From Catellatospora vulcania (GTDB lineage: Bacteria > Actinomycetota > Actinomycetes > Mycobacteriales > Micromonosporaceae), in NCBI RefSeq assembly GCF_009720385.1, contig NZ_WARX01000001.1, positions 372,001 through 436,000 of the forward strand: a DNA stretch of 64,000 nucleotides. Direction: 5' to 3'. This document shows positions 19,333 to 24,027 of this stretch, piece by piece. Under the pieces are notes generated by a model. It ran no database searches. It saw nothing but the letters and a program-made list of their open reading frames with translations, and was not told where the DNA came from. Made by a program: the position numbers and the translations under genes. Positions within the stretch are counted from its first letter, which is position 1, and each line of letters opens with the position of its first letter.

Positions 19333-20384
19333 ACATCGATCTTGCGGCGCTCCGTGCGCTGGCACGTGACAAGGAGATCTCCGAGGAGACCATCCTGCAG
19401 GCAATCGAGTCTGCGCTGCTCACCGCATACCGGCACACCGACGGCGCGCAGTCGCACGCGCGGGTGGAGATCAACCGCCAGTCCGGCGCGGCCGTGGTGT
19501 ACGCGCAGGAGTACGGCGGCGAGGGTGAGCTGCTGCGGGAGTGGGACGACACCCCGCACGACTTCGGCCGGATCGCGGCGATGACGGCCAAGCAGGTCAT
19601 CCTGCAGCGCCTGCGCGAGGCCACCGACGAGGTGCACTTCGGCGAGTACGTCAACCGCGACGGTGACCTGGTCACCGGCGTGATCCAGGCGCACGAGACG
19701 CGTACCGAGAAGGGCATCGTCTCGGTCGACCTGGGCAAGGTCGAGGCCGTGCTGCCGCAGTCGGAGCAGGTCCCGGGCGAGACGTACCCGCACGGCCAGC
19801 GCATCCGCTGCGTGGTGGTGCACGTCGCCAAGAGCTTCCGCGGGCCGCAGGTGACCCTGTCCCGCTCGCACCCGGCCCTGGTGAAGAAGCTGTTCGCGCT
19901 GGAGGTTCCGGAGATCGCCGACGGCACCGTCGAGATCGCCGCGATCGCGCGCGAGGCCGGCCACCGTACGAAGATCGCGGTGCGATCCAACGTGCAGGGC
20001 GTCAACCCGAAGGGCGCCTGCATCGGCCCGATGGGCCAGCGGGTGCGCGCGGTCATGAGTGAACTGCACGGCGAGAAGATCGACATCATCGACTGGTCGG
20101 ACGACCCGGCGGAGTTCGTGGGCAACGCGCTCTCCCCGGCGAAGGCCCTGAAGGTCGAAGTGGTGGATCTCGCAACGCGTGCGGCGCGCGTCACCGTGCC
20201 GGACTACCAGCTCTCCCTGGCGATCGGTCGGGAAGGGCAGAATGCCAGGTTGGCTGCCCGTCTGACCGGTTGGCGCATCGACATCCGCTCCGACGCGGCC
20301 GACTCCGGAGCCGCGCAGCCGCGTGGACCGCGTTCCGCGGCTGATCACGAGACGGAGCCGGGCGGCACTCCCGTCTCCGCATAG
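19329..20384 (+). CDS. nusA: Transcription termination/antitermination factor NusA
   Basis: RNA polymerase-associated elongation factor. The 351-residue protein has an N-terminal RNAP-binding domain ([14 protein letters not shown]), an S1 domain (about 105-180, including [15 protein letters not shown]), and two KH domains ([29 protein letters not shown]). It lacks the C-terminal acidic repeats of E. coli NusA, as is normal for actinobacteria. GTG 19329 overlaps the rimP stop by 4 nt. Confidence 0.97.
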
Positions 20385-20399
20385 GGGTAGACTCATCAG

Positions 20400-20723
20400 G
20401 TGGTACGACGCTCGCGGCCCGCACCGCTTGTGGCGGCCTCATCAGTCACGCCTGTGCCGCCTCCGGTGCGCACGTGCGTCGGATGCAGGCAGCGGGCGTC
20501 CGCTACCGAACTGCTCCGCGTCGTGGCGGTGGCGTCGGGAGCTGACCAGTTCAGTCTCCGACCCGACCCGCGACGCAGATTGACCGGCCGGGGTGCACAC
20601 GTGCACCCGACAGCGGCCTGTCTCGAGCTGGCGCTGCGGCGCCGTGCCTTCGGGCGCGCGCTGCGGATCACCACCGGGGTCATCGACACCGGTGAGCTGG
20701 CCGAGGCGATCCACGGACCGTGA
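20400..20723 (+). CDS. YlxR family RNA-binding protein (DUF448)
   Basis: A 107-residue member of the YlxR family, found between nusA and infB in most Gram-positives and linked in Bacillus to RNase P modulation (RnpM). The signature R-T-C-V-G-C-R-Q-R (about 24-32) and G-R-G-A-H-V-H-P are present. TAGACT (20388-20393) ends 6 nt before GTG 20400, with no Shine-Dalgarno, so a leaderless internal transcript is possible besides read-through from nusA. Confidence 0.9.
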   Translation: MVRRSRPAPLVAASSVTPVPPPVRTCVGCRQRASATELLRVVAVASGADQFSLRPDPRRRLTGRGAHVHPTAACLELALRRRAFGRALRITTGVIDTGELAEAIHGP

Positions 20724-20835
20724 CGCGGCCCGAGGGTCACGAACCGATCCGAAGGATCACCGCCAGACCAGTCACGGGGTGGCGGACCCACCGTAGGCGG
20801 CGGCCTCATCAGCCCCGTCTGAGGATCAAGCAAGG

Positions 20836-20946
20836 TAGGACTACCGGCATGGGCACACGATGAAGTCGCAAAAATGATCAGGCTTCAAGTGCACAAGTGA
20901 GGTCGCAGCGGGTCACTGCCCGTGCGACCTCGGAGTGAGGAGTGCA
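20836..20946 (+). promoter_or_regulatory. infB leader: leaderless promoter and chain of four start-stop-coupled mini-ORFs
   Basis: TAGGACT (20836-20842) ends 6 nt before ATG 20849. From there four tiny ORFs follow, each sharing a 4-nt ATGA or GTGA with the next: 20849-20863 (M-G-T-R), 20860-20877 (M-K-S-Q-K), 20874-20900 (M-I-R-L-Q-V-H-K) and 20897-20938 (13 codons). The last stop overlaps GTG 20935, which is in frame with infB. This stretch is AT-richer than the flanking genes. Regulation by termination-reinitiation is inferred. Confidence 0.5.
20899..20931 (+). promoter_or_regulatory. Hairpin just upstream of the infB ribosome-binding site
   Basis: GAGGTCGCAGCGGG pairs with CCCGTGCGACCTC (13 bp with one bulge) across a 6-nt loop. 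The infB Shine-Dalgarno GAGGAG (20937-20942) begins 5 nt after the hairpin. It also overlaps the fourth mini-ORF, so ribosomes translating that ORF would melt it. Confidence 0.6.

Positions 20947-24027
<3,081 letters not shown>

Follow-up and report, generated by a model that had tools for sequence, protein, structure and literature searches.

Genes for translation factors can read the activity of their own product, as prfB does through a frameshift and infC through its AUU start. Huber et al. (2019) reportedly described termination-reinitiation at AUGA overlaps. In the passages available of Shell et al. 2015 (PMC4633059), tiny upstream open reading frames (ORFs) of mycobacteria are coupled to genes by RTGA overlaps and keep their placement while the encoded peptide changes. 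The upstream ORF (uORF) of ppe2 in Mycobacterium tuberculosis runs into its gene through one AUGA junction, under a riboswitch, and the portion consulted of that report shows this junction to work mainly by termination-reinitiation (PMC11260477). For infB, the gene of translation initiation factor IF2, an Escherichia coli paper deals, in the part seen, with promoters and processing (PMC6511841). Here we analyzed a 64,000-nt stretch of the Catellatospora vulcania genome (assembly GCF_009720385.1, contig NZ_WARX01000001.1, positions 372,001 to 436,000; hereafter the window) and found, upstream of infB, a chain of three mini-ORFs joined by stop-start overlaps whose layout is conserved across the class Actinomycetes. 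A full-text literature search, with supplements and most subscription journals outside its reach, found no description of a mini-ORF chain before infB.

The chain shares with the coupled mycobacterial ORFs their tiny size, the RTGA overlap, and a placement that outlasts the peptide. It differs from what the passages of Shell et al. 2015 (PMC4633059) describe in that three ORFs overlap mutually, a hairpin follows the last one, and the layout is class-wide. Its first ORF, with four codons, lies below the length limit given there, and infB occurs 0 times in the main text of that paper. The junction is of the same kind as at ppe2, but the infB leader has two of them, both among the mini-ORFs, and leaves infB itself untouched. 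That AUGA junctions can work by termination-reinitiation, as the ppe2 report indicates in the part consulted (PMC11260477), is known translation biology.

All features described here lie on the forward (+) strand and carry window coordinates. Mini-ORF 1 (20849..20863) reads ATG GGC ACA CGA TGA and encodes MGTR; mini-ORF 2 (20860..20877; MKSQK) opens at an ATGA that overlaps the ORF1 stop by 4 nt, and mini-ORF 3 (20874..20900; MIRLQVHK) is joined to the ORF2 stop in the same way. From 5' to 3', ORF1 to ORF3 are followed by a hairpin, a Shine-Dalgarno (SD) sequence, and the infB GTG at 20947. In the window, a fourth ORF of 13 codons with a GTG start (20897..20938) overlaps the ORF3 stop. The original prediction, made from the letters of this stretch, had named these starts and stops, and all of them are read directly at 20849-20938, as is TAGGACT at 20836-20842; the AT-richer patch that it described is likewise evident, with a GC content of 51% at 20836-20905 compared with 69% at 20724-20835, 70% at the infB start, and 72% in the window. 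In the entire window, on both strands, this is the single chain of at least three such ORFs, and chains of at least four arose in 4 of 5,000 dinucleotide shuffles of the 200 nt upstream of infB. The bare pattern of 4+5 codons has four matches genome-wide (the chain and three others, L264-L266, which were viewed as ORF lists), against one for a reversed control pattern. As the pattern is not unique in one genome, conservation, and not the pattern alone, is the decisive evidence.

We therefore rely on a comparison of 212 leaders from class Actinomycetes, comprising the window, 80 named loci (the 80 highest-ranking of 333, a set biased toward IF2 N-termini resembling the query), and 131 further loci from 43 families. 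Loci were found by the IF2 N-terminus, which gave matches in 328 of 345 class genomes (60 taken) and in 31 of 40 in a second set (30 taken; locus L287, with 63 nt at a contig end, was excluded). Leaders were sampled from 40 of the 150 genomes of the family Micromonosporaceae, families f9, f17, and f23 lie outside the sample, and the infB start assigned to locus L153 was adjusted by two codons. In some Mycobacteriaceae-type (f2) genomes (G198, G180, and G152), further long frames also match the IF2 N-terminal profile, giving a second or third match per genome.

Under a loose rule (at least three ORFs of 3 to 20 codons each, with NTGA overlaps), a chain stands upstream of infB at 205 of the 212 loci, including at least one locus in each of the 43 families, whereas 254 of 10,600 shuffles (2.4%) contain one. 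A strict rule (three ORFs of 3 to 10 codons, the last stop 30 to 75 nt 5' of infB) still finds the chain at 197 loci and in 41 of 43 families, compared with 20 of 10,600 shuffles, and with a 16-codon limit the first 180 loci gave 175 chains versus 120 in 9,000 shuffles. As the loci are related by descent, these shuffle rates are not p-values, and the loose count takes in a few odd chains, such as those of L267 and L271, which stop 110 to 116 nt before infB. The 15 loci missed by the strict rule are L054, L070, L096, L177, L186, L196, L201, L215, L267, L271, L288, L289, L290, L293, and L294; no locus of family f5 or f12 passes it. At L196, L215, and L289, a 1-nt overlap replaces a 4-nt one and the chain is retained; once such overlaps are allowed, the count becomes 208 of 212, and by either count the junctions are of a kind on which termination-reinitiation can act. 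The overlaps, on whose conservation in relatives the original prediction was to stand or fall, are thus kept across the class. Closer to the window, a DNA search found the leader in 11 of 11 genomes of the genus and in 147 of 150 genomes of the family, and Catellatospora bangladeshensis carries the same leader.

Outside the class, 38 Actinomycetota loci served as outgroups. The infB start was located in 24 of them (doubtfully in L244), none of these 24 leaders has a chain of three, and a search of the whole 391-nt outgroup loci on both strands returned one chain in 38, about the shuffle expectation. On the simplest history, the chain would have arisen at or before the ancestor of class Actinomycetes. 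The earlier judgment that the chain is not accidental is borne out by these results. Chance, or common descent without function, could draw on the three other matches in the genome; set against presence in every family by the loose rule and in 41 by the strict one, in sequence that has diverged, it is disfavored and we regard it as extremely improbable.

Within the 205 cores, ORF1 has 4 codons in 184, ORF2 has 5 in 178 and 4 to 6 in 203, so that its length changes by whole codons, and ORF3 has 5 to 8 in 194. ORF3 closes at 4 to 10 codons in 200 of 205 leaders compared with 1,507 of 8,900 shuffles, and its stop varies freely (TGA in 92, TAA in 64, and TAG in 49). The junction pairs are ATGA/ATGA in 147 cores, GTGA/ATGA in 56, and ATGA/GTGA in 2. 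The letters beneath this frame are far less constant: 178 loci hold 113 distinct chain DNAs and 106 distinct peptide triples, and pairwise identity over ORF1-ORF2 across 30 families has a mean of 0.72 and a minimum of 0.41, figures in which the start and stop letters are fixed because these families were picked for the 4+5 layout. Outside the window genome, ORF1 mostly encodes MSTR, MSTP, MSAR, or MSQP. Examples of peptide triples are MSTR/MSTR/MSAHA in family f20 (Streptomyces-like by inference), MSTP/VKSR/MTMCHS in Mycobacterium attenuatum, MSQP/VKLKP/MNARR in Amycolatopsis, MTAR/MSTQP/MITTSR in Frankia, and VTLTSAR/MSTQR/MSTRTT in family f21. In five Pseudonocardiaceae-type loci (L103, L107, L116, L154, and L163), one more ORF, whose peptide closes with RKQVDPS, overlaps the ORF1 start, making a four-member chain.

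Frames and overlaps outlive the DNA sequence, as would be expected under selection for translation and restart, and a layout kept class-wide in front of this one gene suggests control of the amount of IF2. The same comparison bears on the alternative that the conserved element is an RNA or DNA site, for example a protein-binding motif such as a repeated ATGAGYAC, with the ORFs as by-products. DNA conservation within the family is strong, as the 147 of 150 genomes attest, and ATGAGYACNCG is repeated in Streptomyces-like loci. Between families, however, the motif changes, to the identities just given for the 30 families of 4+5 layout, while frames, whole-codon lengths, overlaps, and the free choice of last stop persist. 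Further, Rfam 15 gave no match above chance at 20600-21100 (two hits below threshold, to nematode and microRNA families), and the chain stretch is not more structured than its shuffles (mean z, -0.24; 14 of 178 loci below -1.5). We consider such a site improbable.

Structure is found instead between the chain and infB. In the window, a hairpin at 20898..20932 has its foot touching the ORF3 stop and perfect arms at 20899-20907 and 20923-20931, in agreement with the hairpin noted earlier, and the sequence between the ORF3 stop and infB has a folding energy of -26.3 kcal/mol (z, -4.3). Across the loci, these tails fold beyond their shuffles (mean z, -2.56 over 141 distinct tails, of which 121 score below -1.5). 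In 200 of 204 loci, the hairpin foot is placed within -3 to +7 nt of the ORF3 stop. With the last 14 nt excluded from the fold, a choice that forces a value of at least 14, 197 of 204 loci have the hairpin end 14 to 17 nt before infB; with 9 nt excluded, 169 of 204 do. The distance from the ORF3 stop to infB has a median of 45 nt (39 to 65 nt from the 5th to the 95th percentile). As the foot and the infB-side position are steady while the contour varies, it is the length of the hairpin that varies and not its two anchor points. A MAFFT alignment of 24 hairpin tails left the stems out of register, which precluded a column-wise covariation count; arms pair at 6.4 of 7 positions within loci and 3.4 when swapped between families, a comparison biased by the picking of arms through folding, and support for the hairpin therefore rests on z-scores and position. 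In the genus, a direct repeat (TGAAGTCGCA/TGAGGTCGCA, at 20861-20870 and 20898-20907) permits a rival pairing of the hairpin 3' arm; the corresponding pairing of 20862-20870 with 20923-20931 was rejected, the underlying ORF2 sequence not being kept in relatives by eye.

The original prediction had the last mini-ORF melt this hairpin and had counted five coupled starts leading into infB. Neither generalizes: the fourth ORF, which ends 8 nt before infB, occurs at 16 of 212 loci (9 of 41 in the Micromonosporaceae sample), and the chain generally ends at the hairpin foot. The conserved part is the ORF1-ORF3 core, and the coupling of a fourth ORF to a GTG at 20935 is not general.

A short translated leader followed by a hairpin also invites the reading of a classical leader peptide, in which stalling at particular codons, the frequent terminal CGA, would sense arginine or ribosome inhibitors. 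ORF1 has CGA as its last sense codon at 134 of 205 loci and ORF2 at 89, and, in the passages seen of PMC10727445, whiB7 is controlled by translation stress through a uORF and its product binds 5' of infB in Mycobacterium abscessus. Yet whole groups have CCG, AAA, CCA, or CAA in place of CGA, no run of a single amino acid is present, and there is no general switching of the SD. A consensus scan of 20200-21100, the one approach used for this point, found no terminator-like site, and an intrinsic terminator is rejected. A stalling leader peptide is, in our estimate, decidedly improbable.

The gene order at the locus is rimP, nusA, ylxR, a 223-nt spacer, and infB, as assigned by Pfam. ylxR (20400..20723; PF04296) lies 5' of the spacer, and infB (20947..24027) matches IF-2, IF2_N, and other families. 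The infB start is likely GTG 20947, which is preferred because the SD sequence GAGGAG (20937..20942) precedes it and the resulting N-terminus matches the proteins of relatives; the anti-SD duplex has a mean of -9.2 in Micromonosporaceae. The GTG taken as the start in the earlier reading (20935..20937) is indeed in frame with infB, 12 nt 5' of the likely start and overlapping the SD, and is at most an alternative; an NTG stands there in 40 of 41 loci of the Micromonosporaceae sample and in 111 of 212 overall. infB starts with GTG at 211 of the 212 Actinomycetes loci and with TTG at one; a weak start of this kind may contribute to the control. The outgroup infB starts are mixed (ATG, GTG, and TTG), unlike this near-uniform GTG.

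The sequence before ORF1 bears on how the chain is entered. An RBS-like (ribosome-binding-site-like) block upstream of ORF1 (20829..20848, with AAGGTAGGA at 20832-20840) is conserved in 59 Micromonosporaceae loci, where its mean anti-SD duplex is -7.5 kcal/mol compared with -4.4 for the stretch 40 to 60 nt upstream. Seven groups were compared (59, 14, 29, 11, 8, 5, and 3 loci, the last three being close relatives that are conserved more widely). In six of them, the block pairs at -7.5 to -9.6 kcal/mol and, in Mycobacterium/Nocardia, at -5.2; the further-upstream stretch gives -2.0 to -6.6 and the infB SD -8.0 to -9.7. The block takes a GGAAGCAGGTCGAGA-like form in several families and that of AGAAGGAGACACGAC in f21, where AAGGAG lies 7 nt 5' of the ORF1 GTG. 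Conservation in the large groups reaches back to about 20 nt 5' of ORF1; beyond that point, neither a -35 element nor any other block is kept. A reading of TAGGACT as a -10 box for a leaderless ORF1 is not supported as a general feature, as the upstream promoter block is not conserved and RBS-like pairing is found in 6 of 7 groups. The comparison favors a leadered ORF1 in most groups, and a leaderless one is possible in Mycobacterium/Nocardia. In M. abscessus, the passages seen of PMC10727445 report WhiB7 and sigma-70 ChIP (chromatin immunoprecipitation) peaks upstream of infB, with a 1.26-fold effect on infB; these peaks place a promoter close to the gene and make transcripts carrying the leader plausible there.

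On this basis, we tentatively propose, with confidence somewhat short of even, that the chain is a cis-acting translated leader, a regulatory relay that sets infB translation with initiation capacity as its signal. A ribosome would start at mini-ORF 1, terminate after about 4 codons, and restart at the overlapping ATG or GTG; a second stop would come after about 5 codons, followed by another restart and a third stop after 5 to 8 codons at the hairpin foot, with the infB GTG 14 to 17 nt past the hairpin. Arrival at the end of ORF3 would require two successive reinitiations after the first start, and its yield would fall with a power of the reinitiation probability, which IF2 and initiator tRNA are proposed to set. 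Because there is almost no elongation, such arrival would steeply report the capacity for initiation and reinitiation (IF2, initiator tRNA, and free ribosomes). At high capacity, ribosomes would be frequent at the ORF3 stop, and their crowding would hinder loading at the infB site; when IF2 is scarce, ribosomes would be lost from the chain, the infB site would be free, and more IF2 would be made. Three obligatory reinitiations would be odd to keep unless initiation or reinitiation is the readout, and the gene behind the chain is always infB. What the DNA itself shows is the chain with its conservation, the hairpin, the two anchor points, and the GTG start; serial translation of the ORFs, the dependence of infB on them, IF2 as the signal, and the sign of control are inferred. 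The stronger form, in which the leader is an ancestral, class-wide meter of initiation that uses stop-start cycling and not the peptide as its signal and exerts steep negative feedback on IF2, is possible, though we lean against it more than toward it.

Several observations weigh against the relay. Its sign is the weakest step. Crowding as the link between the ORF3 stop and infB is a guess, and GUG-started infB might itself suffer in cells low in IF2. Because the core chain stops short of infB, it does not imply that ribosomes are handed over directly. A general SD switch by the hairpin was tried and rejected, as a ribosome placed over the foot, in folding calculations only, lowered SD openness by more than 0.2 in 24 of 182 loci and raised it in 3. 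Four of the 212 loci (L054, L096, L290, and L294) have no three-ORF chain even with 1-nt overlaps, ORF3 of L177 has a 1-nt deletion relative to its relatives, and the chain of the f12 locus L288 stops 21 nt before infB, with no room for a hairpin.

Alternatively, the chain could be translated and act positively, loading or keeping ribosomes without any IF2 signal, either for delivery to infB or to shield the nusA-infB transcript from Rho. Delivery of ribosomes to the following gene has been proposed for short coupled ORFs (PMC4633059 and PMC12548453, in the passages seen), the spacer is an otherwise untranslated part of the operon, and at the 16 loci with a fourth ORF translation would reach to 8 nt before infB. 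However, one ORF of fifteen codons would suffice for this role, yet the class keeps three. Further, a hairpin and a median distance of 45 nt separate the end of the chain from infB, unlike the direct RTGA coupling described for mycobacteria, and infB is preceded by its own strong SD. We regard this explanation as unlikely, although it merits weight.

Whatever the mechanism, it is surprising that ORFs of 4, 5, and 5 to 8 codons are retained over 43 sampled families. IF2 is central to translation, and, if the proposed relay is correct, the whole class, including Streptomyces and Mycobacterium, controls it through a leader too small for gene finders; the leader would also offer a compact natural system for reinitiation after ORFs of 4 to 5 codons and a direct test of initiation-capacity sensing. 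Within the literature searched, counting reinitiations is undescribed as a regulatory principle in bacteria.

Among known leaders, those studied by Korolev et al. 2016 (PMC4833913) are similar in that reinitiation after a short leader ORF was proposed for Actinobacterial ORFs 10 to 11 bp before genes; the passages seen concern single ORFs at that short distance and do not mention infB chains. Leader-peptide attenuators such as the whiB7 uORF and the polycysteine ORFs (PMC10727445 and PMC13236596, as far as the passages go) likewise place a short translated leader before a hairpin, but the infB leader has no terminator-like site, no regulatory codon run, and no general alternative pairing. The likeness to prfB and infC is one of logic, as in those genes the leader or start depends, and for infB would depend, on the very step of translation in which the encoded factor acts. 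The gene behind the chain does encode the factor of the step proposed to be sensed, being identified as infB/IF2 by Pfam in the window and through the IF2 N-terminus at the other loci. Whereas prfB and infC rely on a frameshift and an AUU start, the infB leader has neither and would use a relay of mini-ORFs, its dependence on the factor being putative.
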